Of a stretch of DNA of 64,000 bases, positions 15,217 to 64,000 are shown piece by piece. The notes beneath the pieces were generated by a model. That model ran no database searches, was not told where the DNA came from, and saw only the letters and a program-made list of their open reading frames with translations. Within the stretch, counting starts at the first letter, position 1. Every line of letters starts with the position of its first letter. Origin of the DNA: Citrobacter gillenii (GTDB lineage Bacteria; Pseudomonadota; Gammaproteobacteria; Enterobacterales; Enterobacteriaceae); assembly GCF_013337685.1 (NCBI RefSeq), contig NZ_SUQN01000002.1, positions 1 through 64,000 of the forward strand, read 5' to 3'. The position numbers and the translations under genes are program-made.

Positions 15217-15230
15217 TATTAACTACCTGA

Positions 15231-16019
15231 ATGAAGCGAACCATGAATAACCAAGCTATTTACTCCGTGCAGCGCTGGCTGAAGCCGGTCGCCTGCGGTT
15301 TGCTGTTTGCCGCGGACATCCATTCCGCGTGGGCGGGCATTGCGCTTGACCGTACCCGGCTGATCATCACCGGCGATGCGCGCTCTGTTAGTGCGAACTT
15401 AAGCAATACGAGCCCGAGCATTCCATTCCTCGCGCAGTCATGGGTGGAGGACGCGAGCGGGACAAAAATCACCTCGCCGCTGATGGTTTTGCCGCCGTTG
15501 CAGCGCATTAATGGCGGGCAAAAGGGCATTGCCCGGGTAACAAAAACCGGCGGCATTAACGCATTGCCGCAGGATCGCGAAAGCCTGTTCTATCTGAATG
15601 TTCGTGAGATTCCACCTAAGCCAGATAAGCCAAACGTGCTGCAACTGGCGATGCAGTCACGCATCAAACTGTTTTACCGTCCGTCGGCAATTGTGCCTGA
15701 TACACCCGGAGCGGTATGGCAAAACCAGCTGGTGTTCCACAAGCAGGGTGCCCGCTGGACCGTGAATAACCCGACGCCTTACTTCGTGACCTTAATTGGC
15801 TTGAGCCGCAAGCCGGAAGCGCAGGGCGGCGGCAGGCTGACTGACTTCCCCGGAATAATGATCTCGCCTAAGTCGTCTCTCGATTTCAGCGTGAAAGAGG
15901 GCGATGTCAGCCAGTTCAGCATGATGTACGTGAACGATTTTGGCGGCCATCCCGAACTGAAATACCGCTGTACAGGCAATGTGTGTCAGGCATTGCCGAT
16001 GGAGCAACAGCCCCGGTAA
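15231..16019 (+). CDS. Periplasmic fimbrial chaperone
   Basis: This 262-residue protein is a PapD-like chaperone that caps pilin subunits. It has a signal peptide ending HSAWA|GIALDRTRLI, the first Ig-like domain with the subunit-binding Arg in LDRTRLII, the chaperone motif FYLNVREIPP (about residues 120-129), SRIKLFYRP at the domain junction (binding Lys/Arg), and a second domain with two cysteines near the C-terminus (YRCTGNVCQ). The loop before the G1 strand is short, suggesting an FGS-type chaperone. The ATG at 15231 or that at 15243 could be used. It starts 14 bases after the usher stop. Confidence 0.92.
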   Translation: MKRTMNNQAIYSVQRWLKPVACGLLFAADIHSAWAGIALDRTRLIITGDARSVSANLSNTSPSIPFLAQSWVEDASGTKITSPLMVLPPLQRINGGQKGIARVTKTGGINALPQDRESLFYLNVREIPPKPDKPNVLQLAMQSRIKLFYRPSAIVPDTPGAVWQNQLVFHKQGARWTVNNPTPYFVTLIGLSRKPEAQGGGRLTDFPGIMISPKSSLDFSVKEGDVSQFSMMYVNDFGGHPELKYRCTGNVCQALPMEQQPR

Positions 16020-16032
16020 CAGGACTCGGTAA

Positions 16033-16638
16033 ATGAAAAAAATGCTTTGCGCCCTGCTGATGCTGGGAGTGGCCGGGATGGTTCAGGCCAAAAGCGGCCG
16101 TCAGGATATGAGCCATGTGTCCGGCGAGTATGGCAACGTTCGCTTTCACGGTCGTGTTTATGTCTCACCGTGCGTGCTGGATATGGCATCGCGCGATCAA
16201 ACCATCAACCTTGGCGATATTTCTGCCCGCCGGTTTCACCAGGGAGGCGATCGTAGCGATTCGGTGTTGGTCACGCTGTATCTGAACGACTGCTTAAAGG
16301 GCTCAGGTCATGCCCTGCAGGATTTTCCCGGGCAGGCCAGCGAAATGCCTAAGCTGGCGCACAGCACGGTGGAGCGTGGCGTCTCGCTGACGCTGATGGC
16401 CGACAGTTCTCCGGGAAACAGCGATCTGGCCCGGATCCATGGCAATGTGCGAGGAGCAGGCATTCGGCTGATGACCGAACGTCAGCAACCGATCCATCTA
16501 AGCCAACCGCAGCGCATGTGGATCCTCAAACCTGGAGATAACGCTATTCACTTTCTTGCCGCGCTGGAGTCTATCGGGCGCGAGGTCAGCGCTGGTGAAT
16601 TTCGCGGTCTGGTGAGACTTAAGCTGGAGTATCTATGA
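16033..16638 (+). CDS. Fimbrial subunit (minor pilin)
   Basis: This 201-residue protein has a signal peptide ending GMVQA|KSG and the pilin fold signature: donor-strand GNVRFHGRVYVSPCVLD with the first Cys, INLGDISARRFHQGG, second Cys in YLNDCLKG, and C-terminal LVRLKLEYL. It is close in layout to the second subunit gene (both have a DISAR segment), suggesting an internal duplication within the operon. It overlaps the next gene by four bases (ATGA), so the two are translationally coupled. Confidence 0.8.
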   Translation: MKKMLCALLMLGVAGMVQAKSGRQDMSHVSGEYGNVRFHGRVYVSPCVLDMASRDQTINLGDISARRFHQGGDRSDSVLVTLYLNDCLKGSGHALQDFPGQASEMPKLAHSTVERGVSLTLMADSSPGNSDLARIHGNVRGAGIRLMTERQQPIHLSQPQRMWILKPGDNAIHFLAALESIGREVSAGEFRGLVRLKLEYL

Positions 16639-17699
16639 GCGTTTGGCATAAAACGTTGTTCTGGACAGCGCTGGCTTGCTGTCCGCTGACGGCGCACGCA
16701 TTTAGCCAGGGAGAGGGTGAACCAGAGGGCGGGGCACCGCATCAGTACGATATTGAACTGAGTTCGCTGGATGTCAGCAAAAACCACGTTGGTGGTCGAA
16801 CGGAGCCGTTTCCATGGAATCTGGGGAGCTGGTATGTAGTGAATTTTTATTGCCAGCAGGCCGATATCTCACGAGAACCTATTTACTACACCACCACCAC
16901 CACGATGCCACCTTCAAGTCAGGGGGCGAACCGTTTCCGACTCAATGAGTATCTGGATGTCGATGTTCAGGTATGGGTCGCCGGGGGCTATAAGAAATAT
17001 GTCCAGGCTCCCTTTACCAATGTTTCAAACCGCAACAACAGCAACACCTGCAAAAAGCGAAAGGGCTACGTGCGCGCCAGTAATGTTGAAAGTGGTTCGA
17101 AAGGGAAAGTGACGTTTATTGTCACCAAACCCATTATTAACGGTATCAGTATCACTTCTCAGTCGTTGCTGGAGGTCGCCGGGCGCATGGGAAGCGGTGG
17201 ACCCACACCCACAACGGCGATTTCCCGCGTGGTGATTAAATCCGGGCTGATTACCGTGCCGGATAAATGCACCTTTAACCGGGGCGATAAAATCAGTATC
17301 GAATTTGGCGATTTGCCCGGTTCTGCCGCCCGGCTCAATGGTTCCAATTTCAGCAAGTCGATCCCGATTCATGTGTCCTGCGAAGGCGGCAGTTTTGATC
17401 AAGGGGCGCTGAACATCAATTTGGGCGTACAAACCACCACGGCTTCAGGCACGGCGGGGTTTAACGATCATTTCCTCGGCACCCTCAGCAGCGGAGAAAA
17501 ACGCGACGACCTCGGTATTGTCCTGAAGGATGAGAGTGGAAGCATTGTGGTGCCGAATCAGTTCTATAACGTCAAGGGCTTTTACCAGAATCAGGGCGAC
17601 TGGAACCTCACCGCCGCGCCGGTAGCGAAGCCAGGCGTGGGTAGCGTTAAGGTGGGGGAGTTTGAAGCTTCGGCCACCGTTGTTGCGCAGTTTCAGTAA
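16635..17699 (+). CDS. Two-domain fimbrial tip adhesin
   Basis: This 354-residue protein is about twice the length of the other subunits and is the probable tip adhesin. After a signal peptide (PLTAHA|FSQ) residues ~23-205 form a distinct N-terminal domain, presumably receptor-binding, and ~208-354 form a pilin domain with Cys pair (PDKCTF and VSCEGG), IEFGDLPGSAARLNG and the terminal strand ATVVAQFQ. The N-domain has cysteines in NFYCQQA and NTCKKRK and an unusual TTTTTMPPSS run at 86-95. The receptor is not predictable; it is not a FimH or PapG sequence I recognise. Confidence 0.8.
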   Translation: MSVWHKTLFWTALACCPLTAHAFSQGEGEPEGGAPHQYDIELSSLDVSKNHVGGRTEPFPWNLGSWYVVNFYCQQADISREPIYYTTTTTMPPSSQGANRFRLNEYLDVDVQVWVAGGYKKYVQAPFTNVSNRNNSNTCKKRKGYVRASNVESGSKGKVTFIVTKPIINGISITSQSLLEVAGRMGSGGPTPTTAISRVVIKSGLITVPDKCTFNRGDKISIEFGDLPGSAARLNGSNFSKSIPIHVSCEGGSFDQGALNINLGVQTTTASGTAGFNDHFLGTLSSGEKRDDLGIVLKDESGSIVVPNQFYNVKGFYQNQGDWNLTAAPVAKPGVGSVKVGEFEASATVVAQFQ

Positions 17700-17708
17700 G
17701 GTAATGCC

Positions 17709-18251
17709 ATGATATTCAGGACGTTAATCACGCTCAGCGCGCTGCTGATCGGCGGTACGGTGCAGGCCGACACCAAACTGGTCGGCGGCGATATGCACTT
17801 CCACGGCACCATCAGGGCGCTGGCCTGTAGTATTGCGCCGGGTGGCGACAAAATCGAGGTCGATTTCGGGCAAATCGCGACCCAGGATCTTTATCTTGCT
17901 GGGCGCGGTAAGCCGGAAAAATTCAGTATTCAGCTCCGTGATTGCGATCCTGATGTCTTTCGTGGGATCTCCGTGACCTTCGGCGGCACTGAAGATGCGG
18001 AACTGCCCGATCATCTGGCACTGGATAGTCACGAGCAGGGGGGCGCATCAGGGATCGGCATAGGGATGAGCGAAGAAGACGGCGCGGCAATCCGGCTTGA
18101 TGAGAGTACGTCAGTGACAGACATTACCAAAGGATCGATGACGCTGAATTTTCTGGCGTGGGTCGAGGCCCAGCCGACAGCGTTGAAAAATCAGTCCCTT
18201 GAGTACGGTCCTTTTAGCGCCAGTGGGACCTGGACGCTGAACTATCAATAG
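17709..18251 (+). CDS. Fimbrial subunit (minor pilin)
   Basis: This 180-residue protein has a signal peptide ending GTVQA|DTK, a donor-strand GDMHFHGTIRALACSI with the first Cys, VDFGQIATQDLYLAG, second Cys in LRDCDPDV and C-terminal strand TWTLNYQ. It is the fourth small pilin of the operon. It lies nine bases after the adhesin gene, and only one base separates its stop from the next start. Confidence 0.82.
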   Translation: MIFRTLITLSALLIGGTVQADTKLVGGDMHFHGTIRALACSIAPGGDKIEVDFGQIATQDLYLAGRGKPEKFSIQLRDCDPDVFRGISVTFGGTEDAELPDHLALDSHEQGGASGIGIGMSEEDGAAIRLDESTSVTDITKGSMTLNFLAWVEAQPTALKNQSLEYGPFSASGTWTLNYQ

Positions 18252-41068: not shown

Positions 41069-41512
41069 GTGCGACAGATTCTTGATACCCTGGCGCAACT
41101 CCAGCGCCTGCGAGATAAATCAGTAAAAGACATCACGGTGCAGTTGGCGAAACAACAACAGCTGTGCTCTGGCTATGAAAACAACATCAAAGCGCTAGGC
41201 TACCTGGTGCAAAAAACCGGTCCCGGCGTTGATGCTCCTGGCATTGAATCTCTCAAAAATGTGTCCGGCTATAAAAGCACGCTGCGCAAGGTGATTGCCT
41301 GGCAAGAGCAGGAAAAGACGCTGGCGAAAATTAAAGAAGTGCGTATCCAGAAAAACCTGATCGCAGCAGCCTGCCAGGAAAAAATCGTTGCCATGACGCT
41401 GGATGAAAAACGGCAAGATCTGCAGGACGAAGTCGCTATCAAGGAACAGAAGATCGTGGATGAGATTGCCACGCAGTGTTGGTTACGTAATAAGGTCTTT
41501 CGGCAAGAATGA
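41069..41512 (+). CDS. lfiJ: Flag-2 export chaperone LfiJ (FliJ)
   Basis: This 147-residue, highly charged and almost entirely helical (coiled-coil) protein has the size and position of FliJ, the central stalk of the export ATPase and chaperone escort. Sequence identity to FliJ is weak, as usual, so the call rests mainly on its place after lfiI. It starts at GTG 41069. Its stop overlaps the next start in an ATGA, linking the cargo gene that follows to the flagellar operon. Confidence 0.85.
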   Translation: MRQILDTLAQLQRLRDKSVKDITVQLAKQQQLCSGYENNIKALGYLVQKTGPGVDAPGIESLKNVSGYKSTLRKVIAWQEQEKTLAKIKEVRIQKNLIAAACQEKIVAMTLDEKRQDLQDEVAIKEQKIVDEIATQCWLRNKVFRQE

Positions 41513-41904
41513 AAACAATCATCACGTTTGGCACCTTTGATGTATTTCACGTTGGTCATCTCAATATCCTGCAACGGGCGAAGCAGTTAGGCGGGCAACT
41601 GGTGGTAGGGGTCTCCTCTGATGCGCTCAATATCGCTAAGAAAGGCCGGACACCGGTGTACAGCCAGTCTGACCGGATGGGAATTGTGGCGGGGTTAAAA
41701 TGCGTGGATCGCGTGTTTCTCGAAGAGTCGCTGGAACTAAAAGCCGATTATATCCGCCAGTTCAATGCCAACATGTTAGTGATGGGGGATGACTGGGCGG
41801 GCCGCTTTGATAGCTTCTCGTATCTTTGTGACGTCGTTTATTTCCCTCGGACACCGGCCATTTCGACCACCACGATTATTGAGGTGGTCAAGACATATAA
41901 GTAG
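41509..41904 (+). CDS. Glycerol-3-phosphate cytidylyltransferase (TagD-like)
   Basis: This 131-residue nucleotidyltransferase would make CDP-glycerol from CTP and sn-glycerol 3-phosphate. It has TFGTFDVFHVGHLNILQRAK (the HxGH motif, His14-His17), VVGVSSDALNIAKKGR, and FPRTPAISTTTII, which matches the RTxGISTT signature of TagD/GCT enzymes. CDP-glycerol is the donor for teichoic acids in Gram-positive bacteria and for some capsules and O-antigens. The start overlaps the lfiJ stop (ATGA), so it is expressed with the basal-body operon. Its base composition is like the flagellar genes. A partner transferase domain occurs in the fusion protein at 47403-49964. Use of another substrate such as ribitol phosphate is less likely. 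Confidence 0.87.
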   Translation: MKTIITFGTFDVFHVGHLNILQRAKQLGGQLVVGVSSDALNIAKKGRTPVYSQSDRMGIVAGLKCVDRVFLEESLELKADYIRQFNANMLVMGDDWAGRFDSFSYLCDVVYFPRTPAISTTTIIEVVKTYK

Positions 41905-41954
41905 GACATATGTGCCAAGGCATTATTCTGCTATGGAATACAATGATTTTCTAT

Positions 41955-42686
41955 TTATTCACTATGCTTGTAAGCCAAGTGATAAAGCTCTGAAATATGC
42001 TTTACTTTCATTCCGAATTTGGAAAAAAGTATATCGAGGGATTTGTTAGAGTAAATGGTGATATGTCCATTACGTGGCGCTATATACCAAAAATTCATCA
42101 GCTTATTTAGATGGAAATCGTTAGTCAGTGTTGAAAAGAAATATTTACCATTATTTTGATCTAAAAGAGAGTCTATCATCTCCATAGTCTTTACTGGCGT
42201 TGGTGTATGCTCCATGACTTCAAATGACGTTATAAACTCATACTTTTCATTTGGTATGGGGGCTGAATTATTGAAGGGGTCCCAACCAACCACATCTGTG
42301 CCATATTCTTGTAATAACTGTACCAGCTGTCCGTCACCGCAACCAAAATCTAGCATACGGAAATTTTGTAGATTTTTGAATGCATTGCGAAGTAAGTTGA
42401 AGTTGTGAAGAGATCTTTTGCAAATAAAATTAGGATCATGTTTTATATATTCGTCATTGTAAATGTATCTGGAGTAATCTGCATCAGACCATTTATCAAA
42501 GGCGTGGCTGTATATCAATCCACAGTTCTTGCATTTATAATAATAGACGGCATGGCCGCTTAGCGGATAGTTATATCGGTGAACGTTGTTTCCATAGCAA
42601 GAAACATTAAAGTCAGTTACGCCATAAATATCAGCTTCAGTATCGCAAATTTTGCAATGTGGTGATGAAGTAGTATGTAATTTCAT
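41955..42686 (-). CDS. SAM-dependent methyltransferase with zinc-ribbon N-terminus
   Basis: This 243-residue protein starts with two CxxC pairs (CKIC near residue 11 and YKCKNCGL near 50), probably a zinc site, followed by a class I methyltransferase fold: motif I RMLDFGCGDGQLVQLL, acidic VVGWDPF, post-motif FEVMEHTPTPVKTM. The layout is that of methyltransferases acting on sugar or polyketide intermediates (Methyltransf_12/23-like with a TylF/C-methyltransferase-type zinc domain). The acceptor is unknown; in this context a glycan precursor is likely. It is the last gene of the minus-strand cargo operon and markedly AT-rich. Confidence 0.75.
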   Translation of the reverse strand: MKLHTTSSPHCKICDTEADIYGVTDFNVSCYGNNVHRYNYPLSGHAVYYYKCKNCGLIYSHAFDKWSDADYSRYIYNDEYIKHDPNFICKRSLHNFNLLRNAFKNLQNFRMLDFGCGDGQLVQLLQEYGTDVVGWDPFNNSAPIPNEKYEFITSFEVMEHTPTPVKTMEMIDSLLDQNNGKYFFSTLTNDFHLNKLMNFWYIAPRNGHITIYSNKSLDILFSKFGMKVKHISELYHLAYKHSE

Positions 42687-42725
42687 TATTTTCTTAATAA
42701 AAAATAGGTTAATGATTGATATTTG

Positions 42726-43919
42726 TTATCGCAGGACTTTCTTTCCACCAATCCATAATTCAAGTTGTTGCTGCAAATCATGAAAATTATCAGCGATAAC
42801 CTGTGCCATATCGGGAGAGAAAAAATGTGTGATATGTGGGTGTGCTCCTCCCACTCGCTGTCGGTTTACTTTTTCAAGATCGATAAAAGGGATTGCAGAT
42901 TTGTTATATTTTAATAAACTTAAAATATCAAGCTGGTTTGTTGGGTCAGTTTTCCATAAAAACATCTGATATTTTGTATTCACCTTCAATAAATGGAAAT
43001 ACTCATTAGTGGCAGCATACCCCTTCTTTAATGGGCTACCATTGTGCAGACTTTTTTGTTGGGAAAAGAGATTACGACTAAAACAGACCTTACGTTTGGG
43101 CGTTAAGGCGAAAAATTGATTATCTTCACAAGGTGTTGTAGGAATCGTCAGTAAATTTAAAGCAGTGTTATGCAGATCAACCATGCTAACCATGTGATTT
43201 ATATCGAAGGATTTCATTCCCGGACAGAAAATAAACGCGGGGGTGTGCACTAATGAAGTGTATGGCTCTATTCCATGGGCGTATCCACCATTAAATCCAT
43301 GCCCCCAGAAATCATCACCATGGTCGCCGAACCCGACAATAATAGTATTGTCCAGTTTTCCTGCATCGAGTAGTATTTTAATCGTTTGGCCAATCATTAT
43401 ATCCATACTTTGGTATCCGCGTTGCCATCTGTCGAGACTGTTTTTACCGCCTTTTTTTATCTCATCGTGGTAACAAAGATGGCTGCTTAAGTTCCATAAA
43501 TATAAAGCAAAAGGCTCAGTCTGTGACACGACCTGGCGCATTTCAGCGAGCATGGTCGCCGATGTGTCGTACCAGTTGAATGAGTCTGTTTCGCTCCATA
43601 TTGAATCAACATTGGCCCAGTTTTTAGGATATCCCATTCCTGCGGTACGATAACCATGTTGTTTCAGGGTATCAAAAAGTGGTGGGCAGCGACGCTTAAG
43701 GGTAATATTTGTCTCGAGGTGAGTATTATGCTCAAGCGTATTGTCTTCGCCATGTAACAGGTCGCTAAAGGCCATAAGTGAAGATGTCGCGCTGGATATG
43801 AAGTTGTTAAACCTAATGGATTGCGAATTTATTTTACTAAGGAATGGAAACCATTCCCTGTGGCTAAAAATTGTCTGATTGAGACTTTCAAGATGTAGAA
43901 ATATGATGTTTTTATTCAT
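42726..43919 (-). CDS. Alkaline-phosphatase-superfamily (LtaS/sulfatase-like) protein
   Basis: This 397-residue protein has the phosphoglycerol-transferase/sulfatase fold: IFLHLESLNQ with metal-binding Glu11, SSATSSLMAF with a candidate nucleophile Thr45, and GFGDHGDDFWGHGF with the Asp-His metal pair. ESLN and a Thr nucleophile are closer to LtaS and OpgB-type phosphoglycerol transferases than to C/S-x-P-x-R sulfatases. Unlike LtaS there is no membrane segment or signal peptide, so it would act in the cytosol. It could transfer or hydrolyse glycerol phosphate, phosphoethanolamine or sulfate. It lies three bases after the ATP-grasp gene. Confidence 0.72.
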   Translation of the reverse strand: MNKNIIFLHLESLNQTIFSHREWFPFLSKINSQSIRFNNFISSATSSLMAFSDLLHGEDNTLEHNTHLETNITLKRRCPPLFDTLKQHGYRTAGMGYPKNWANVDSIWSETDSFNWYDTSATMLAEMRQVVSQTEPFALYLWNLSSHLCYHDEIKKGGKNSLDRWQRGYQSMDIMIGQTIKILLDAGKLDNTIIVGFGDHGDDFWGHGFNGGYAHGIEPYTSLVHTPAFIFCPGMKSFDINHMVSMVDLHNTALNLLTIPTTPCEDNQFFALTPKRKVCFSRNLFSQQKSLHNGSPLKKGYAATNEYFHLLKVNTKYQMFLWKTDPTNQLDILSLLKYNKSAIPFIDLEKVNRQRVGGAHPHITHFFSPDMAQVIADNFHDLQQQLELWIGGKKVLR

Positions 43920-43922
43920 TTT

Positions 43923-45191
43923 TTAATCACGAATTAAGAGTTCAAGCATGTTTATATCAAAGGTTGGGATTTCTTTAGCGTTAAAGACTTCCATCCGTTC
44001 TGAAAAACTATCATCGATAAAAATAGAGTTTTGCTGTTTAATCCAGTCGCTTTTCTTTGCATCTTTATCTAAATGTATTATTGAATCAAAAAGCATGCTA
44101 ATACGACGTGTATTAAGTTCGAGATGGATATCTCCAGCATGACGAGTGATTAAGTGGATTGATATTTCGTGGTTAATACATTGATATAAAAAGGTAATGA
44201 CAAGCAGGCAGAGTTTGTCATTAATAATAACGGTATCATCATAATCGATATAAACATGCTGAAATTGTATGCTGTGCTTGTATTGATTAGACAGACTACG
44301 GGTAATCTGAAGTTCTTTACAGACGGGGAGCAAAGCAATCTTTTTCCGCATTGCTTCATAGACAGTAAGTAGAGGAAAATTGATGCCATTCACGCGATTT
44401 AGCGCCATTGTACCGGCAATACGTGGAGCGACTTCCAATAATGTCAACTCACCTGTCGCGGCGCGTTTTAGCTGAAAAAACCAGGCTCCACGCATGTGAA
44501 ATCGATCTGAAATAGCACGAGCATATTCCTCGACGTGTTCAAGCGTGACCAGCCTCGACGTCATCGCAATTCCAGCACGAATCCGTGAGCGGGTGCGCGG
44601 CTGGCAAAACAGCAATCCCCGGTCGCGGTCGGAAAAGCAATCAACGGTATATTCATCCCCGCTAAGGTATTCGCAAACGATCAGATCACTTTGTTGGGCA
44701 AGAAGCGACGCTAAGGCTTCTGGCGTTTCAATACAGCTGGCGCCTTGTGCTCCCTGTCCACGATCGGGTTTCACAAAAACCGGCCACTGCGTAATTTTGT
44801 TACTGTCAGTATACACAGCAGGAACAGGTAATATTTTTCTAAGAGACTGATATGTTTTGCTTTTATAACGGGTGGTTTGGCAGGTCTCATGGGGGGGACA
44901 CAACACCGTTGCTGAAAGAGCATCTCTTTTTTCAGAGAGTGCAAGTAGAGCATCGTCATGTGCCGGAAAAATATAATCGATCTTTTCTAACTGGAGTAGT
45001 TGCTGCAAGGCATCCAGCCAATTCGGTTGCGCTATGTCTGGAATGACATGATATGCGCAAGCACAGTGACGGGCGTGGCTGTCGTAATCAGACCCGGCCA
45101 GTGTAATATTGATGTGCTTATCATGGCGTAAGACGTAATAGATTTCCTTACCAATTTCTGTCCCTGCCGGAAATATAAGTATATTAGTCAT
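43923..45191 (-). CDS. ATP-grasp ligase fused to HAD-like domain
   Basis: This 422-residue protein has an N-terminal ATP-grasp enzyme (about residues 1-290) of the carbamoyl-phosphate-synthase/PylC-like type: N-terminal pre-grasp fold (ILIFPAGTEIGKEIYYVL), WPVFVKPDRGQGAQGA (ATP-binding loop) and LTLLEVAPRIAGTM (metal ligands). The C-terminal ~130 residues look like a HAD hydrolase: HVYIDYDDTVI with the DxDDT nucleophile motif and SIFIDDSFSERM. The combination suggests amide or ester bond formation plus phosphate removal on a sugar or amino-acid intermediate; the substrate is unknown. It overlaps the aminotransferase gene by four bases. Confidence 0.72.
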   Translation of the reverse strand: MTNILIFPAGTEIGKEIYYVLRHDKHINITLAGSDYDSHARHCACAYHVIPDIAQPNWLDALQQLLQLEKIDYIFPAHDDALLALSEKRDALSATVLCPPHETCQTTRYKSKTYQSLRKILPVPAVYTDSNKITQWPVFVKPDRGQGAQGASCIETPEALASLLAQQSDLIVCEYLSGDEYTVDCFSDRDRGLLFCQPRTRSRIRAGIAMTSRLVTLEHVEEYARAISDRFHMRGAWFFQLKRAATGELTLLEVAPRIAGTMALNRVNGINFPLLTVYEAMRKKIALLPVCKELQITRSLSNQYKHSIQFQHVYIDYDDTVIINDKLCLLVITFLYQCINHEISIHLITRHAGDIHLELNTRRISMLFDSIIHLDKDAKKSDWIKQQNSIFIDDSFSERMEVFNAKEIPTFDINMLELLIRD

Positions 45192-46300
45192 GCTGCAATA
45201 AACTCGATAATTGTATTAATCTCCTCAGATGTCATATCCGGGTAGATTGGTAGACACAGGATGTGTTCCGAAGCATAGTTTGCTACCGGTAGATTTTCTT
45301 TTTGTGCTCCGGGCATTTTTTGATACATCATCAAATTAGACAGTAGTGGATAAAAATATCGTCGGGTCAGGATATTATTGTTCTTTAAGCGTGTGTAAAG
45401 TTCGTCTCTGGATATTTTATAGTCTGATTCGATGAATACCGGAAAGTAGCTGTAGTTGCTTTTATAATTGGTATTATTCAGTATTCTTATGCCTTTGATA
45501 CCGACCAGGTTTTGACGATATAGCTGATCGATTTTTTTACGTTTAGCGATAGCATCATCTACATAATTCAATTGTAATAAACCGAATGCAGCCTGTATCT
45601 CATTCATTTTTCCATTGATACCGGGAGCCACAATAGTGACTTCGTCGGCGATACCAAAGTTTTTAAGGTAATCAATTCGTGTCTTTGTCTTTTTATCGTA
45701 ACTAACGATTGCGCCGCCTTCAAACGTGTTGAAAACTTTTGTTGCATGAAAACTGAGTACTGAAAGATCGCCATGACGCAGGATGCTGCCACCAACATCT
45801 TCGATCGCAAAAGCATGCGCAGCATCGTAGAGGGTAGGAATGCCATAATTGCTTGATATTTCTTCTATTTCTTCAGTTTTGCAGCTCTGCCCATAAACAT
45901 GAACAGGCATTATTAATCCGGTGTTTTTGGTGATTGCGGATTCAATGAGCCTGGAATTAATGTTAAGAGTCTCAGGATCAATATCAACAAATACCGGTGT
46001 TAATTGATTCCAGAGTATACTATGGGTAGTTGCAACAAATGAGTAAGGGGTGGTAATGACTTCACCTTTAATTCTTAGTGCTTGCATCGCTACAATGAGT
46101 GCGATTGTTGCGTTACAAAATAATGAAATATACGGGACGTTCAAATAAGTGGCTAAGTGCTCCTCAAGTCGCTGATGCATGCTGCCATTGTTAGTTAATT
46201 GTCGTGATGACCAAATATCCTCTAAATAAGGTAAAAACTCTTCAAGCGGAGGCATAAAGGGTTTTGTAACCGTAATGGGATTCTGCTGCAAAGATTTCAT
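45188..46300 (-). CDS. DegT/DnrJ/EryC1-family sugar aminotransferase
   Basis: This 370-residue PLP enzyme resembles the nucleotide-sugar 3- or 4-aminotransferases (WecE, VioA, FdtB). The start PFMPPLEEFLPYLEDIWSSRQLTNNG, the cofactor segments LFCNATIALIVAMQA and DAAHAFAIE, and the Schiff-base Lys in SFHATKVFNTFEGGAI are present. It would convert a keto-deoxy-sugar nucleotide to an amino sugar, though no dehydratase gene for the precursor is visible in the window; this may come from another locus such as O-antigen or ECA synthesis. It lies two bases after the GT2 gene. Confidence 0.85.
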   Translation of the reverse strand: MKSLQQNPITVTKPFMPPLEEFLPYLEDIWSSRQLTNNGSMHQRLEEHLATYLNVPYISLFCNATIALIVAMQALRIKGEVITTPYSFVATTHSILWNQLTPVFVDIDPETLNINSRLIESAITKNTGLIMPVHVYGQSCKTEEIEEISSNYGIPTLYDAAHAFAIEDVGGSILRHGDLSVLSFHATKVFNTFEGGAIVSYDKKTKTRIDYLKNFGIADEVTIVAPGINGKMNEIQAAFGLLQLNYVDDAIAKRKKIDQLYRQNLVGIKGIRILNNTNYKSNYSYFPVFIESDYKISRDELYTRLKNNNILTRRYFYPLLSNLMMYQKMPGAQKENLPVANYASEHILCLPIYPDMTSEEINTIIEFIAA

Positions 46301-46302
46301 TA

Positions 46303-47373
46303 TTAATGTTCCTGAGATAAGTTATTGATTATTGTTTGATAAGAGTCAGGTAATCTCGACTTGATACTTAAAATAATGAGTTCTCTGATTTTCTGGTCAT
46401 CAATATGATGAAGCGCTATGCGATAAAGTTCTGGCAAGATCTGTAAGCGTGAATCGCAATGGATAATTGCCTGTACGATGTGATATGTTATTTTGTTAAC
46501 GTTATTATGATTTAAGGCAACTAAATACCCTTGGTAATGTAAAAGAGCATCAGTCGGATCGTCAATAAGTAAGTCATCAATGTCTTTATTTAACAATGTA
46601 TGATCTGGATGCGCATATTGTTTCCAACGGCTATCTATTGCTTTTACCCATGCAGGTTCATGCTTCCATTGGTTGAGGATCATCATTCTGTTACGGTACA
46701 TTAACTTGCTATTATCTCTTCTGAACCATGTGTTATTATTATGGCGACGATACTTGGCCACGACTCGCTCAGAAGATATAAACTCCCCTTGTTTCGCAAG
46801 CTTTAAAAACATGTCCCAGTCCTCCTGTACTAAATCAGGAGGGGAGCGTTCAATTCTTAAATAAGCATCTCGGCGGATAAGTGATCCAATATAGAGGCTT
46901 AAATTACCCGTGATGAGCATATGTTCGAACACATCGCCATTGAGGAATATATTATTGTATGGAAAGATCGAGCCATCAGGCATGATAACTTGCACAGCAC
47001 TGTAACACATTGAACAGTTGGTGTTTTTCTCCATCATGTTTACCTGATGCGAGATTTTTGTGGGCATGATTAGATCATCTGAGTCGACGACAGCAATGTA
47101 CTTTCCTTGTGCAAGATTCATTGCTTGTATTATTGGTTTTTCACCTTTTTTAATGTGTTGGGAATAATAATTTTCTTCTCTCAGAATCGTTTTACACTGA
47201 TGTTTTTTTTGGTATTTCTTGATGATTTTTTGAGAGTTGTCGGTAGAGGCATCATCAACAATAATAACCTCAATATTTTTCCATGTTTGTTTGTAAACAC
47301 TTTCCAGTGCCTCTTCAAGATATTGAGCGTGGTTATAACTGGTGACGATAATACTCACTAATGGGCTGGTCAT
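46303..47373 (-). CDS. Family 2 glycosyltransferase
   Basis: This 356-residue protein has a GT-A family 2 domain in residues 1-~230: VSIIVTSYNHAQYLEEALESV, VIIVDDASTDNSQ, and the DxD-type VVDSDDLIMP, plus QEDWDMFLKL in place of the catalytic ED box. The C-terminal ~120 residues are unassigned. There is no membrane helix. It is AT-rich compared with the next upstream gene, from which it is separated by 29 bases. Confidence 0.85.
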   Translation of the reverse strand: MTSPLVSIIVTSYNHAQYLEEALESVYKQTWKNIEVIIVDDASTDNSQKIIKKYQKKHQCKTILREENYYSQHIKKGEKPIIQAMNLAQGKYIAVVDSDDLIMPTKISHQVNMMEKNTNCSMCYSAVQVIMPDGSIFPYNNIFLNGDVFEHMLITGNLSLYIGSLIRRDAYLRIERSPPDLVQEDWDMFLKLAKQGEFISSERVVAKYRRHNNNTWFRRDNSKLMYRNRMMILNQWKHEPAWVKAIDSRWKQYAHPDHTLLNKDIDDLLIDDPTDALLHYQGYLVALNHNNVNKITYHIVQAIIHCDSRLQILPELYRIALHHIDDQKIRELIILSIKSRLPDSYQTIINNLSQEH

Positions 47374-47402
47374 TTATCTCTATCCTGTGAAGTCTGGAAG
47401 CA

Positions 47403-49964
47403 TCATGGGAATAATTTTTTCTGCAGACTGAGCAGTAGCGTATTCATTGACACCAGAGAGCTGTTTTCCAGCACCTCTGCAATCTCACTGGCCGCTCTCT
47501 TCCCCGCCTTACCATCCATAAACGCGTCGCAATAATGTTGGCGGATCTCGTCCAATGGCGCCTGTAACGCGTTCCAGTCGTTTGAGCTGGACAGCAGGTT
47601 TCTGAGTTCCACCATATCGCTGGCGACCGGTAAAATCGCTCGGATCTGCTGGTCGGCACTGCGGGGGCTGGAGTAACTTTTCTGCCCATCCAGTAACGCC
47701 TGCATACCCGGCCAGTCGAGGAGGATGACGCGCTTGTTGGCATGAAGGGCATCGAAGATAAATCCGCTGTTATCGGTGAGGACGTAATCGGCCTTCGCGA
47801 GCAGCGGAAGGACGTGATCCGGCGCATCTGTTCGGTTTTTAAAACACTTGCGCGCCAACGTCAGCGAAGCGGCCTCTTCCGGTCGAGAGCAGGTACCGTG
47901 GTGCAATTTGCAGATGATATTGAAGTCATGGCTTAAATGGCTCAGCTTTTCCGCCCAGTGCGGTAGTGAGCTTAATGCGCCGTAGGTTGGGGCATACAGT
48001 AGCGTCGGTTTTTTGGCATCAAATTTCAGCGATGCCGGGAGAGATGTCTCAACGTGTCCTTGATGCCAGCGATCAAAGCGGGGATTTCCGACCACCTTCG
48101 CGCTGCCGTTAATATCCAGCGCTTGTTTGCTGTAATGGCTGTAACACAAAATACGGTGGTAGAACGTATTCCACCAGGCATGATTCCACTCTTCTTTTGC
48201 CAGTCCGTACATGGCGCGAACGTGAATATCGGCCAAATCTTTCAGAGCCGGCGTGTAGTAGGGGCTGACCAGACATTTGAAGCGTTTACGTTGCTGAATA
48301 ACTTCAGAAATACGTGCGCCACCCAATGTTGGGTCGTTGATAGCGTTAATGGTTGCGGCCATTTCATCAAGAAATGGCTTATGGATGCGATCGTTAACCA
48401 GCAGCGAACATGTCTGGCCCATTGCTTGCAGTGCGGCAATTATTGGCTGATAGACGGCATAATGAAACGAGGTCTCCATAAAGAAGGCGATCGTATTATC
48501 TCTCGCGTTAACGGGCTGAGAGGGTGCGCTAGTTACCGATTGAAAGTTAGCGGGGGCTTTATTTATTTTATTGAAATAAAAGCGAATATTATCTGTTTCC
48601 TGCTTTTCGATGTCGCTATAGCCCGCGCGTTGGTAGGCGATACTCGGATAGCAGGCCAGCCATTTTCCGTCGCGCAGCAGGGGCTGCCATTGTGCTTCCA
48701 GCGACTCGGACGGATCCTGCGCCATCTGCCTTGCAAGCGAGGCGTAATAATGGTCGTTAACCAGGTAGGCGCACACTTTCCGGCAATCGCGGGCATGGAT
48801 CATCCCGTTGAGGCTTTTCAAAACCGTGCCCTGTTTGATTTCACCGCCGAGCAGGATCACTTCCCAGGGTAATTTTGGCAGGGCGCTGAGCAGCGCATTC
48901 AGCACGCTGATGTGCTTCTCTTGCTTCAGAATGACGCTATCGTCCTCCAGTAACAGGTAGTTTTTCCAGCCTTGCTGTTGTGCCAGATGCAAGGCCTGCA
49001 AATGAGACTGGCGACGGCCCAACTGACCATTTACGTCTTCGCAGGCGGCCAGGCGGGTGATTTTTTCCGCCGGGACATTCAGTCGGGCAAGTTCCTGTTG
49101 GATCTGTCCCAGACGATCCGTGCGCGCATCAAGGTTGACGATCACCACCTGATCGATGGCATCCCAGCGGATCGGCTGATGGTGGGTGGCGTTATGCAGG
49201 CTCTGATACCAGTTTTTCAGCATCGGATCGGGGATTGCCTGCTCGAGGCTGGTCTGCAACGGTTCACTGGCTCCCAGTACAAAATCTTTATCAAACGTAT
49301 TCTGGCTGTGTGAGATACACAGAATGGTGCGTTCTCCAGGGAGTTGCAGCGGGTTAACGGTGAAATTATGGGTGAACCCTGCCTCTTCACTTAGGTTGCA
49401 CTCATCATCATAACGGTGTTTTTTCAGATAGTTACGATGATAGCAGAAGGTCCCGTTGAGAATATTTTGTGGGCCAAAACGGTGGGTTTTAAAAATACGA
49501 TTGATGTGGCTGTACCAGATAGGGATCTGGTCTGAACCGGAAATCAGCGCCCGATGGCGCTGCATCATCGCAAGGGTATAGGTGATTTTATCCGCCGGAT
49601 AAAAGTCATCATCGTCCATACACAGAATATATTCACCCTGCGCCAGTTCATTGAGCATATTGCGTTTTTTACCCAGCGCCAGCCTTTCCGGATGGTGGAT
49701 ATAACGGATATTAAATGCGCCAGGTTTGCCTTGCGTCAGTTGCTCAATAAGCGGCAGGTGGCTTTGCGGTGAATCATCGAGGATCACCAGCTCTCTGCGA
49801 TCCGCCGGATAATCCTGATAGCGGAACATATACAGTAGCCATGGCAAGAAAGCGGCACGGTTCCAGGTCGGCGTAACGACGCTGACAAACGGTTTTTCAC
49901 GACCGGTATCCAGAGTCTTAACGACGCCAGGCAAAATAGTGCGAGTTTTAGCGGATTTGGACAT
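47403..49964 (-). CDS. Trimodular GT2 + GT25-like + CDP-glycerol glycerophosphotransferase fusion
   Basis: This 853-residue soluble protein joins three transferase modules. Residues ~25-265 form a GT2 domain (VSVVTPTWNRAAFLPWLL, LDDSPQ, CMDDDDFYP). Residues ~270-470 resemble family 25 LPS glycosyltransferases (VVIVNLDARTDRLGQI, then YLLLEDDSVI). Residues ~490-840 resemble TagB/TagF-type CDP-glycerol glycerophosphotransferases (FHYAVYQPIIAALQ, LLYAPTYG near 655, IICKLHHG, ADYVLTDNSGFIFDALHANK near 726). The start ATG 49964 is chosen over a TTG at 50018 that lies inside lafV. Its composition is close to the flagellar genes. I infer it builds a glycan and caps it with glycerol phosphate from CDP-glycerol. 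Confidence 0.8.
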   Translation of the reverse strand: MSKSAKTRTILPGVVKTLDTGREKPFVSVVTPTWNRAAFLPWLLYMFRYQDYPADRRELVILDDSPQSHLPLIEQLTQGKPGAFNIRYIHHPERLALGKKRNMLNELAQGEYILCMDDDDFYPADKITYTLAMMQRHRALISGSDQIPIWYSHINRIFKTHRFGPQNILNGTFCYHRNYLKKHRYDDECNLSEEAGFTHNFTVNPLQLPGERTILCISHSQNTFDKDFVLGASEPLQTSLEQAIPDPMLKNWYQSLHNATHHQPIRWDAIDQVVIVNLDARTDRLGQIQQELARLNVPAEKITRLAACEDVNGQLGRRQSHLQALHLAQQQGWKNYLLLEDDSVILKQEKHISVLNALLSALPKLPWEVILLGGEIKQGTVLKSLNGMIHARDCRKVCAYLVNDHYYASLARQMAQDPSESLEAQWQPLLRDGKWLACYPSIAYQRAGYSDIEKQETDNIRFYFNKINKAPANFQSVTSAPSQPVNARDNTIAFFMETSFHYAVYQPIIAALQAMGQTCSLLVNDRIHKPFLDEMAATINAINDPTLGGARISEVIQQRKRFKCLVSPYYTPALKDLADIHVRAMYGLAKEEWNHAWWNTFYHRILCYSHYSKQALDINGSAKVVGNPRFDRWHQGHVETSLPASLKFDAKKPTLLYAPTYGALSSLPHWAEKLSHLSHDFNIICKLHHGTCSRPEEAASLTLARKCFKNRTDAPDHVLPLLAKADYVLTDNSGFIFDALHANKRVILLDWPGMQALLDGQKSYSSPRSADQQIRAILPVASDMVELRNLLSSSNDWNALQAPLDEIRQHYCDAFMDGKAGKRAASEIAEVLENSSLVSMNTLLLSLQKKLFP

Positions 49965-50011
49965 GATGACTTCACGGAAAAAAGGGCCGGTAGATTCCCG
50001 GCCAAGGGGCG

Positions 50012-50956
50012 CTAACAAATAAGCAGTGAAAAAGCAGACAGCAGATAATCCGCTGGCAGTATGGCCTGCACCTGCTGGCGCACTGAGGCTGATTCCTCGC
50101 TGTGGCGCCAGCGCTCAAGCAATGTAAACAGCGCGAAAATGTCAGCCTGGCTCAGCGGCGAGCCGTCCAGCGTCCACAGGCTCAGTAGGGTACGGATCAG
50201 GTAAAAATCGGTGACCAGCTCAAACAGACGTTGGGTGATGCTGGCGCTCTCATGCTGCGGGAAGGTGTCATGGTAGAGGCGATAGATCAGATAGTTACTG
50301 AAAATCCAGGCTTCCTCGGCAAAGTACTGCTGATGGGCTTTATGCCACTGTTTCTGTAATTGCTGGAGCAGCAAAGCTTCGCTGTTGGCATCCTGCATCA
50401 TGAGCAAACTCAACTGCAGCGGCAGCGTCATTTTGCGCGGGCTTTCGGGCAGGATCTCCCAGTCGAAGGTCAAGCCGCCCATCAGAGACAGCAAATGGCA
50501 TTGCAATTGTGGCAGGGCCGGTAGACGTGAAAATTGATTCTGCAATTTTCCCGTTGCGGCATAGTCAGCAAGGACGTTGGGCTGTGAGGCAATTTTTGCC
50601 AGCGTGTCGGCGTCGTCGCCCGGCAGCTTTTCGGACCACGAAAGCATAATGCCCAGCGCGTACAGACGCAGGTCTGGCGTTAAACCGGCAATCGTTACGG
50701 CATTGAGTGCGGCCTGATTCAGCACCCGATCGCGTGGTGATAACAGGGCGCTCTGTGAGTTGCAATCACTCTGGGTGACATGCAATACAAAAGCATTGGC
50801 ATCGCCAAGGGCGGCTGTGCAACTGGCGATGTCTGTTAACGCCAGGCTCTGGCGGATTTCATGTTGCCACGTCATCTGGACATGCAAGGGAGAGTCCGGG
50901 TTGTGGGCTAAAAATGCACGGACAAAGTCAGGCTCGTAGCAATTAATCGTACTCAT
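50012..50956 (-). CDS. lafV: LafV, FliB-related protein lacking the cysteine cluster
   Basis: This 314-residue protein occupies the place of lafV of the E. coli 042 Flag-2 locus. It shows short similarity to flagellin lysine-N-methylase FliB: EPDFVRAF (residues 8-15) matches the start, and HEIRQSLALTDIASC (32-46) resembles the segment that in FliB follows its cysteine-rich region; the later WIFSNYLIYRLYHDTFP matches the FliB C-terminal part. The intervening cysteine-rich segment, which in FliB holds an iron-sulfur cluster, is missing. It may be inactive or differently working. It heads the minus-strand cargo operon behind a sigma-54 promoter. Confidence 0.68.
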   Translation of the reverse strand: MSTINCYEPDFVRAFLAHNPDSPLHVQMTWQHEIRQSLALTDIASCTAALGDANAFVLHVTQSDCNSQSALLSPRDRVLNQAALNAVTIAGLTPDLRLYALGIMLSWSEKLPGDDADTLAKIASQPNVLADYAATGKLQNQFSRLPALPQLQCHLLSLMGGLTFDWEILPESPRKMTLPLQLSLLMMQDANSEALLLQQLQKQWHKAHQQYFAEEAWIFSNYLIYRLYHDTFPQHESASITQRLFELVTDFYLIRTLLSLWTLDGSPLSQADIFALFTLLERWRHSEESASVRQQVQAILPADYLLSAFSLLIC

Positions 50957-51094: not shown

Positions 51095-51523
51095 TTAAGG
51101 CTGGTAAATAAAATCAGGCTCGGTGCCCAAAAACGACTGAATGAATTCGCACTGGCGAATCAGCAGATCGCCATTCTTTTCGTTATAGGATTTGCAGCGT
51201 TCCGCTTTTTGTTCCAGACGCTGCCACCAGCTTTGCGCGGCGTTTTTTTGTGGGCCGGGCAACCAGCTAAATACCTGTTCCAGACCGCGACGATTGACGC
51301 TCACGCCCAGCTGTTGCAGGATCGCGCGGCGCTGCAGGCTACTGCTATTTAACTGTTCATAATGCTGTTGGATGACTTCATTGACGCTCAACAGCTCGTC
51401 ACTGGCTCGACGAATCATACACAAACGCTGCTGTTCCAACTGAGTTCGCAGTGTGTCATACAGCGTTTCGTCTTCCCGAATGCCCTGAAGCAACAATTTC
51501 ACCTGTTGCAGCTTAGTACTCAC
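51095..51523 (-). CDS. lfgN: Flag-2 export chaperone LfgN (FlgN)
   Basis: This 142-residue, mostly helical, Leu/Gln-rich protein has the size and place of FlgN, the chaperone for hook-associated proteins FlgK and FlgL. Segments such as LQQVKLLLQGIREDETLYDTLRTQLEQQR are typical. It follows lfgM after 12 bases. Assignment rests partly on position. Confidence 0.85.
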   Translation of the reverse strand: MSTKLQQVKLLLQGIREDETLYDTLRTQLEQQRLCMIRRASDELLSVNEVIQQHYEQLNSSSLQRRAILQQLGVSVNRRGLEQVFSWLPGPQKNAAQSWWQRLEQKAERCKSYNEKNGDLLIRQCEFIQSFLGTEPDFIYQP

Positions 51524-62890: not shown

Positions 62891-63366
62891 TCAGGCTGGC
62901 AGGCTTTTGCGGTGAAGGAAAATGAGGAAGGGTCTGAAACAATCAGGCCACCGACATCTTGATTAAACAGTAAATTTTGTTGTTTATTTAAATGAATCCA
63001 CCACGTTCGCAGATTGTGTTCATTAACGAATGAACCTAAATTTGATAAACGCAAATCATTCTGGTCGGTTTCAGCACCACTGAAACGAAACTCCCCCTGT
63101 TTAACAGCTCCAGAGTAGCGGTTAACGCAGGCCGAGATTTTAAAAATGGACGGCGTTTTTTTATTGGTATCGAGAGGAATCAAGGTCACGGTGGTGTTTT
63201 TGCCCGGTGGGCTGACCATCATTTCATAATGTGCGCTGGTTCCCGCCTCGAGGTCATAGTTCGCAATAATCGTATTCTCAATACGCGCACTGGCGGTAAA
63301 GATGGTGAATGCTGCAATAACAGGAAGGGCATAGAAAAAGTAATTATTTGCATTTTGGCATTTCAT
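62887..63366 (-). CDS. FidL-like membrane protein next to LafZ
   Basis: This 159-residue protein starts with a membrane segment or signal anchor (NYFFYALPVIAAFTIFTASA) and has a predicted periplasmic domain with two cysteines (KISACVN and TAKACQPD). It overlaps the upstream lafZ-like gene by 23 bases and thus forms a translationally coupled pair with it. The layout copies the FidL-like gene at 9578-10096, although I see no obvious sequence identity between them. It meets lafW tail to tail with a four-base overlap. Confidence 0.65.
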   Translation of the reverse strand: MKCQNANNYFFYALPVIAAFTIFTASARIENTIIANYDLEAGTSAHYEMMVSPPGKNTTVTLIPLDTNKKTPSIFKISACVNRYSGAVKQGEFRFSGAETDQNDLRLSNLGSFVNEHNLRTWWIHLNKQQNLLFNQDVGGLIVSDPSSFSFTAKACQPD

Positions 63367-64000
63367 TCAACACTTTCTCCACTTCTTTATACATAACATT
63401 ATTCATTTCATTATCTTTGTTTTGCCAGCGTTCAAAGCTCAACGCTAACTGCCAACTGTCATTGCATTGGTTACTCAGCACTATATCCAAAACAAATTTA
63501 TTCAGCGATACCCGGTAATACAGTTCCATTGACGCATTATGCGTGTCCAGCAACTGATTAATCCCTTGAATACCCGGTGACATATGCTGCGAAAATGGCG
63601 TAACGGCGGCCGGTTGGGTATCAGGATCGTAAAGGTGGTAAACGGTAATACGTTTAGCGTTATTCAGGTTTTCTTTTATTAATTGTGGTGTTTCAGCGGT
63701 TGTCATTTTTGGCTGTGCGTTAAAGTAATACATAAATGTGAACAAAAATAAGGCAATGGCGATAACCGAACCTACCATCATAGCTGCCTGATAAGGGCGT
63801 TTTTTAACCGCAGTGCGTGGCGTTTTTAGTGTGTCTGTAGCGGTGTCGAATGCCGGGGACATCAGCACCTGATTGCCATTTTGCTGCTTATCCTCCGTTG
63901 TGCTCTCGGGGAGTGCAGCGTGCTCTGCCACCGCTTCAATGTTGTCATTATTAACATTGCACTTATTGTTGTTAACAGTTTCAGTGAGGTAATTTTTATT
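63344..64000 (-). CDS. lafZ: LafZ-like membrane-bound transcriptional regulator (partial, cut by window edge)
   Basis: The minus-strand frame is open from the window edge at 64000 to 63344 (218 codons with no stop before), so the N-terminus lies outside. What is visible is a polar linker (ending KKRPYQ), one membrane helix (AAMMVGSVIAIALFLFTFMYYF) and a periplasmic domain (LDTHNASMELYYRVSLNKFVLDIV) with two Cys. ToxR/CadC/MarT regulators have this form, with a winged helix before the linker. E. coli 042 has the transmembrane regulator gene lafZ next to lafW. A GTG at 63931 is not needed as a start. It is expected to regulate Flag-2 or to respond to envelope signals. Confidence 0.75.
   Translation of the reverse strand, partial: NKNYLTETVNNNKCNVNNDNIEAVAEHAALPESTTEDKQQNGNQVLMSPAFDTATDTLKTPRTAVKKRPYQAAMMVGSVIAIALFLFTFMYYFNAQPKMTTAETPQLIKENLNNAKRITVYHLYDPDTQPAAVTPFSQHMSPGIQGINQLLDTHNASMELYYRVSLNKFVLDIVLSNQCNDSWQLALSFERWQNKDNEMNNVMYKEVEKVLNEMPKCK

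Follow-up and report, generated by a model that had tools for sequence, protein, structure and literature searches.

A three-gene core in the Flag-2 locus of Citrobacter gillenii as a candidate glycerol-phosphate capping module of the flagellum

The DNA stretch analyzed in this study (referred to as the window) comprises 64,000 nucleotides of the 4.92 Mb genome of Citrobacter gillenii (assembly GCF_013337685.1, contig NZ_SUQN01000002.1, positions 1 to 64,000) and carries a Flag-2 (lateral) flagellar locus with a block of eight genes between lfiJ and lfgN (41509-50956). Three of these genes, encoding a TagD-like cytidylyltransferase, a fusion protein consisting of GT2, GT25-like and TagF-like parts, and LafV, form a core that is well supported as a genetic unit by gene content, co-occurrence, coupled decay, a fold match and synteny with flagellar operons, all obtained in this study. 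The chemistry proposed for it rests on sequences and models: the core probably represents a flagellar phosphodiester-capping module, in which CDP-glycerol predicted to originate from TagD would be used by the fusion to place glycerol phosphate on a flagellar sugar. The sequence-only reading of the window had taken such a modification to be undescribed. However, section 9 of De Maayer 2020 (PMC6993521) already predicted teichoic-acid-like glycans on Flag-2 flagellin, for the same locus type (variable region 1) and the same lfiJ-lfgN position. Therefore, the hypothesis itself is in print, and this study adds a probable transferring domain, its decay coupled to the loss of TagD, the exchange of modules between loci and a parallel in Bacillaceae.

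According to the proposed mechanism, TagD would convert glycerol 3-phosphate and CTP into CDP-glycerol, and one or two sugars would be attached in the cytoplasm, prior to export, to a Flag-2 protein (most probably LafA, the flagellin) by the GT2 and GT25-like portions of the fusion. CDP-glycerol would then serve the TagF-like domain as the donor of glycerol phosphate for this sugar, with release of CMP and a mass gain of approximately 154 Da per glycerol phosphate unit. The likely CDP-glycerol user is thus the C-terminal domain of a conserved glycosyltransferase fusion, whereas PMC6993521 lists TagB in this role, a protein found in far fewer strains than TagD (TagB-type 65, TagD 235, LtaS-type 30, WecE-type aminotransferase 29, LafV 342). 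The GT2-1 protein of that survey (222 strains) is possibly the fusion described here.

To evaluate the co-occurrence of TagD and the TagF-like domain, family genomes matching lfgN were used (43 in total, of which the window and 40 others were read and G133 and G018 left out; G and L numbers denote genomes and sequence stretches, respectively). Among these 40 stretches, both genes were found in 13, the domain only in 3, TagD only in none and neither in 24 (p = 5e-8; all co-occurrence p values refer to Fisher tests, which ignore kinship). For the 25 stretches featuring a GT2 core, the corresponding numbers were 11, 3, 0 and 11 (p = 1e-4). Two of the 40 stretches (L078 and L079) gave no lfiJ or lfgN match at 1e-8 in a later search, and some of the more distant stretches (L077, L081) are possibly not Flag-2 loci. 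Within the genus, the fusion was detected in 12 and TagD in 11 out of 17 genomes, and TagD never occurred without the fusion. A wider table of 66 stretches, reduced to 62 genomes because L084-L087 each come from a genome represented by another stretch, contained 36 genomes with TagD and the domain, 4 with the domain only, 22 with neither and none with TagD only (p = 4e-13); in 4 of the 36 (G080, G184, G636 and G737), TagD was located further along or on another contig. Since this table was selected (ten same-genus stretches by TagD, two from E. coli by likeness to lfiG-tagD, twelve by the domain and L083 by the fusion), the lfgN-picked sample is the fair one. An order-wide sample was uninformative, with 6 of 394 genomes. 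In a tree built from the FliI sequences of 56 loci by a quick method, with good support at 13 of its 52 inner branches, the TagD state changed at least nine times, and an intact domain followed TagD in all six well-supported independent pairs (p = 0.031).

Use of the TagD product by the domain is most strongly supported by the coupled decay of the latter, observed for four losses. The test covered 42 copies, namely those of 40 of the 62 genomes together with L078 and L094; L101 and L102, which lie outside Flag-2 and both keep the HH and D.SG motifs, were left out. H188-H189 and S233-G234 of the domain, located in the window within the KLHHGT (47892-47909) and TDNSGFIFD (47751-47777) motifs on the minus strand, were conserved in all 38 TagD-bearing genomes, 13 of which (the window, ten picked by TagD and two E. 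coli) had been chosen with TagD in view and 25 had not. Each of the four TagD-less genomes has lost at least one of these residue pairs (L050, LLHNDD/DDDARLFD; L053, VLQHGA/DNRALLFD; L083, LVQHTV/DSDECTFD; L051, KPHHDT/DNCGFLFD). Identity to the window was lower in the TagF part than in the GT2 part by 36, 34, 34 and 23 points in the four TagD-less copies, and by 8.1-23.1 points (mean 14) in 28 TagD-bearing fused copies whose GT2 part is more than 74% identical. Likewise, 65-67 of 67 marker columns, defined on a domain alignment (A1) whose 15 rows all come from TagD-bearing genomes, were kept in 23 held-out TagD-bearing copies, compared to 42, 45, 50 and 62 in the TagD-less ones. In TagD-less copies, the glycosyltransferase part stays while the part predicted to require CDP-glycerol decays. 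The loss in L051 looks recent, since its same-genus sister L052 has TagD and an intact domain. One stretch with an intact domain and no TagD (L118) proved to have TagD elsewhere in its genome. Because TagD and the domain co-occur, with 13 joint occurrences and no solitary TagD in the survey proposed by the sequence-only reading, and because the domain decays without TagD, the assumption of that reading that CDP-glycerol made by the first gene feeds the fusion is the best one.

The tagD gene (41509-41904, plus strand, 131 amino acids) overlaps lfiJ by ATGA and contains HVGH and RTPAISTT, in agreement with the initial description of the frame. Its product matched CTP_transf_like at 8.6e-22, and the best NCBIfam family was TIGR01518, glycerol-3-phosphate cytidylyltransferase (GCT; 8.5e-34), followed by an HldE-type domain (8.4e-20), so that the assignment to GCT proposed at first held as the nearest one. 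Bacillus subtilis TagD (1coz) aligned over residues 1-126 (5.1e-31). The fusion (47403-49964, minus strand, 853 amino acids) begins with a GT2 domain (8.7e-18) and ends with the TagF-like domain (47406-48464), for which an AlphaFold2 model was obtained (pLDDT 88.4) whose best matches in the Protein Data Bank (PDB) were TagF and TarL. The KLHH residues are invariant in all 15 rows of A1 and, in the comparison concerning the second catalytic histidine of TagF (H584), were aligned at the level of the stretch with K/RxH in TagF/TagB proteins of Bacillaceae. When the domain profile was searched against PDB sequences, the top rows were a J-type co-chaperone (0.03, a chance match), followed by TarL (0.059); searches with the Bacillaceae kin described below and with the L063 protein yielded no relevant match. 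The GT25-like middle part (48555-49172) matched PF01755 below the cut-off (0.039) and gave no relevant match to solved structures by sequence; standalone kin in L044 and L050, 34% and 33% identical, reached 6.3e-9 and 3.2e-8 for this family.

Several observations weigh against the proposed capping function. Substrate, reaction, acceptor sugar, target protein and the choice between a single unit and a chain were all inferred. The TagD-like protein scored below the TIGR01518 cut-off (116.3 of the 165.4 bits required), and is therefore filed as TagD-like and not as a proven equivalog; CDP-ethanolamine and CDP-choline cytidylyltransferases were also matched, more weakly, and sister loci possess different donor sets. 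The same machinery could consequently work with another donor, the TagD-like enzyme activating a different polyol or amino alcohol phosphate for transfer by the domain. This is unlikely, because the E-value for GCT is 14 orders of magnitude better than that of the second-ranked NCBIfam family and the stretches GTFDxxHxGH, MGDDWxGxFD and RTxxISTT line up with 1coz. The domain itself, initially described as CDP-glycerol glycerophosphotransferase-like, is backed in this respect by its fold, whereas its match to PF04464 was weak (0.0013, 18.2 bits, gathering threshold 22.1), as were those of E. coli L042 (15.9 bits) and L083 (19.1 bits); related proteins passed the threshold in L056 (23.4), L131 (37.2), L134 (27.5), L135 (58.3) and L137 (54.3). 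Regarding the fold, other GT-B proteins, GlcNAc 2-epimerases first, come closely after TagF and TarL in the match list, the epimerases being only about 2 Z units lower than the best match. Furthermore, the first catalytic histidine of TagF (H444, WHGTPLK) is not conserved: its column corresponds to Y/H near domain position 70 by sequence alignment and to Y86 by fold match, and while the two alignments disagree, neither gives an invariant histidine. This also bears on the idea that a true poly(glycerol phosphate), teichoic-acid-like chain decorates the flagellum, as predicted in section 9 of PMC6993521 and as the polymerases TagF and TarL, being the nearest solved folds, would suggest; given the missing histidine and the single phospho-unit added by the closest known flagellar systems, as described in PMC10714395 and PMC11833859, a chain appears slightly less probable still than a different donor.

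Regarding the comparative data, the decay test rests on just four TagD-less genomes, and the mildest TagD-less copy (L051) drops by 22.9 points, which is inside the TagD-bearing range. Presence of the domain, intact or not, followed TagD in four out of six independent pairs (p = 0.125). Two of the genomes with neither gene in the stretch (G024 and G186) have TagD in another locus, and other loci were searched for TagD in only part of these genomes. For E. coli, three values were obtained among 5426 complete genomes (1262, 1265 and 1264), which are bare totals rather than a genome-by-genome comparison; megablast of the block gave no match in E. coli, and blastn of lfiG-tagD did.

When a collection with a single genome for each species, described as comprising 84,980 genomes, was scanned, 36 loci were obtained, all with HH and D.SG kept; as motif patterns were used, decayed copies would be missed. 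TagD was located in the stretch in 29 of them and elsewhere in the genome in 6 (L116, L118, L121, L133, L135 and L137). In the remaining one, Carboxydothermus islandicus (L138), a distant TagF-like protein (32%) keeps the motifs and the genome gave no TagD match at 1e-10, which counts against strict coupling of TagD and the domain. Moreover, TagF-TagD pairs were found outside Flag-2 in Pantoea sp. RIT-PI-b and in Fukatsuia symbiotica (L134:7300-12892), the latter beside choline-kinase, EamA transporter and nucleotidyltransferase genes, and these pairs count against an exclusively flagellar role. The Fukatsuia region also holds a short sulfatase-fold frame. In two Bacillaceae, Heyndrickxia ginsengihumi and Weizmannia acidilactici, a GT2-TPR-PF04464 protein of 1026 or 1024 residues is encoded directly behind a flagellin gene. 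In L135, upstream genes encode FlgK and another protein with a flagellin domain, FlgL judging by its position, FlaG is located downstream, and the motifs YGLAK, MHHGT and DNSG are kept. Both Bacillaceae genomes have TagD elsewhere (46% identical), as would be anticipated for producers of wall teichoic acid. Occurrence of TagD-TagF pairs outside Flag-2 would fit a module decorating a non-flagellar target, such as lipopolysaccharide or another envelope glycan. Against this, many genera have the core genes placed between lfiJ and lfgN, and in Bacillaceae the gene for the fusion comes after a flagellin gene. This evidence is positional and no proof, and such a target is improbable.

Decay of the cargo without any present function was also considered, as a same-species genome (G062) showed no lfgN, TagD or fusion match, so that Flag-2 was probably lost there. 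For the window, this explanation is highly improbable: all eight frames were found open in the reading-frame check at the positions first reported, downstream, beyond the end of the window, the Flag-2 locus goes on to the flagellin, FliD, FliS, FliK, sigma-factor and motor genes, and none of the 38 TagD-bearing genomes tested shows damage to the domain motifs.

The block as a whole is composite. Besides the core, it contains five genes that probably represent a mobile cassette and would act as a separate, optional unit, probably adding a further amino-sugar-type decoration. Across 41955-47373, the GC content is 39.1%, compared to 50.3% for tagD, 51.7% for the fusion and 54.3% for the LafV gene. 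The fusion and a LafV-like gene were present in ten out of ten same-genus loci (L021-L029 and L033), which had been picked by their TagD, and the five insert genes in few. Insert genes were co-present in the window, L022 (four), L023, L024, L025 (sulfatase 41%), L056 (four), L086 (three) and L136 (four), and the insert methyltransferase is 84% identical in L023 and L024 and 54% identical in L027. One E. coli locus consists of lfiJ-tagD, the fusion, LafV and lfgN and nothing more. Owing to the low GC content and the restricted occurrence of the insert, the single eight-gene set assumed in the sequence-only reading was rejected. The individual insert assignments of that reading were borne out by profile matches, all on the minus strand: a methyltransferase (41955-42686; PF13489, 1.7e-26), a sulfatase-fold protein (42726-43919; PF00884, 1.3e-23), an ATP-grasp protein (43923-45191; PF15632, 3.9e-19), whose C-terminal HAD-like part was recognized by motif reading only, a DegT-type aminotransferase nearest to DesI (45188-46300; PF01041, 2e-94; TIGR04427, 1.7e-81, 274.4 of 650 bits) and a second GT2 glycosyltransferase (46303-47373; PF00535, 1.5e-27). 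The sulfatase-fold protein had been called LtaS-like; it reached 31.1 of 970 bits for NF053595, and a hydropathy scan detected no membrane helix (maximum 0.95), so that it appears to be soluble and not a membrane LtaS. With its gene present in few loci, LtaS-type phosphoglycerol transfer was ruled out as a core step.

Comparison of sister loci suggests that the donor and transfer parts are exchanged. L056 and L063, both from a single genus, are almost identical in FliI; in L056, TagD is accompanied by a separate TagF-like protein, and L063 (1519-4617) carries in their place an NTP_transf_3 protein, a SerB/ThrH-like HAD protein, a methyltransferase and a PF04464 protein (8.2e-7). When A1 was compared with the L063 phosphotransferase at the profile level, the match was weak (probability 24), and their kinship therefore rests on the PF04464 matches of both. 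L083, of the same genus as the window, encodes a legionaminic/sialic-type set (12754-18000; LegC family 5.8e-157, NeuC 4.8e-142, NeuB 3.2e-144, NeuD 1e-56) beside its decayed TagF domain, and no TagD was found in this genome. In L044 (13930-16581), the same GT2-GT25 protein ends in a Capsule_synth domain instead (PF05159, 1.1e-14), the family to which the CMP-Kdo-using KpsS belongs, and L060 possesses only the GT2-GT25 protein and LafV. The make-up of the L063 cassette equals the Clostridioides difficile type A set as described in PMC10714395, and legionaminic acid on lateral flagellin has been shown for Plesiomonas (PMC4481668). Variable region 1 may, as a tentative proposal with somewhat less than even chances, represent an exchangeable capping system, extending glycerol-phosphate flagella over two phyla. 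A constant GT2-GT25 primer enzyme with LafV would be combined with matched donor genes and GT-B transfer domains that are swapped as units, such as CDP-glycerol (TagD and TagF domain), CDP-N-methylthreonine (L063), legionaminic-type genes (L083) and the Capsule_synth domain (L044). Once the donor gene is gone, the transfer domain would lose its active site or be replaced.

The core resembles known flagellar systems in its gene content, as a GT2 domain, a phosphotransferase and a cytidylyl-donor enzyme occur together in a flagellar locus; this concerns genes and not activity. According to PMC11833859, the P. aeruginosa b-type protein FgtA (PA1091) likewise joins GT2 and phosphotransferase parts and is accompanied by a cytidylyl-donor set (PA1088-1090), and the PAO1 flagellin sugar carries a phosphodiester-linked group as proposed here, contrary to the initial statement that no Gram-negative flagellum is known to be modified in this way. 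The donor proposed there is CDP-N,N-dimethylthreonine, whereas the TagD-like enzyme points to CDP-glycerol, and in the window fusion a GT25-like part separates GT2 and phosphotransferase, FgtA being considered here from its published description. In C. difficile type A (CD0240-CD0244), the account in PMC10714395 assigns to the CD0244-type phosphotransferase a requirement for the phospho-group on flagellin GlcNAc. In contrast to the window core, this Gram-positive system uses separate genes and adds phospho-N-methylthreonine. Of its CD0241/0242/0243-type donor genes (HAD phosphatase-type, NTP transferase and N-methyltransferase), profile searches of the window block found no NTP_transf-type gene or SerB-type HAD match, with a methyltransferase present, and the set occurs in L063. 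Gram-negative TagF-like capsule enzymes, as portrayed in PMC5974469 and PMC10299916, also have the domain joined to other transferases, often with TPR, and use CDP-polyol donors, but they make polymers, keep H444 equivalents and are non-flagellar. A tagD gene inside a flagellin glycosylation island was likewise described in Geobacillus, for one strain, where PMC5109656 interpreted it in terms of a possible phospholipid derivative. No measured glycerol-phosphate flagellin was found among the open-access papers listed, judged from titles and the beginnings of abstracts.

LafV (50012-50956, minus strand), a gene left unnamed at first, is FliB-like (NF038110, 5e-13, 49.3 of 85 bits) and aligns to the C-terminal half of the FliB profile only (positions 162-361 of 373). 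In FliB, the N-terminal CX4CX3CC motif binds the essential [4Fe-4S] cluster (PMC8598068). This motif was found in none of 28 aligned Flag-2 FliB-like proteins (window and L021-L062), 5 of which, the more distant ones, have CxCxxC instead, and the LafV model (pLDDT 92.2) gave no PDB match at E ≤ 0.001. A role as methylase was rejected for lack of the motif; judged by its sequence, LafV is a conserved core partner and probably not a FliB-type methylase. PMC6993521 treats LafV as a sign of flagellin methylation, a reading that calls for caution and is doubtful for these loci, since the iron-sulphur motif is missing in 28 copies.

If the capping proposal is true, Gram-negative flagella would bear a Gram-positive-type, negatively charged and probably antigenic glycerol phosphate cap. 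Phosphoglycerol on a Gram-negative appendage is known from meningococcal type IV pili. Of 5426 complete E. coli genomes, some 1260 (about 23%) carry the locus concerned, and the gene-list prediction of 2020 would become directly testable, as an enzyme and a mass are named. Joint gain and joint loss of the donor gene and the transfer domain would further be suggested, and, should the exchangeable-system interpretation apply, the related Bacillaceae enzyme behind flagellin would extend glycerol-phosphate flagella to two phyla.

The block is divided between two flagellar gene strings, with tagD attached to lfiJ (41069-41512, plus strand; supported by its open reading frame and synteny with relatives, the E. 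coli counterpart being annotated fliJ) and the other seven frames on the minus strand behind lfgN (51095-51523, minus strand; Flag-2 FlgN, PF05130, 2.3e-17). Starting from lfgN, the spacing along the minus-strand string is 138, 47, 29, 2, -4, 3 and 39 bases. Among named relatives, the TagF domain is nearest to that of C. amalonaticus (77%), followed by C. braakii, C. youngae, C. werkmanii and others (70-72%). The Flag-2 variable region of L067 (11325-15083) contains a long Rhs-repeat-like frame and a transposase-like frame, both read by eye. Finally, upstream of the flagellin gene, the minus strand encodes a regulator with a Trans_reg_C domain (PF00486; window 63344-64000; L139:4345-5295).

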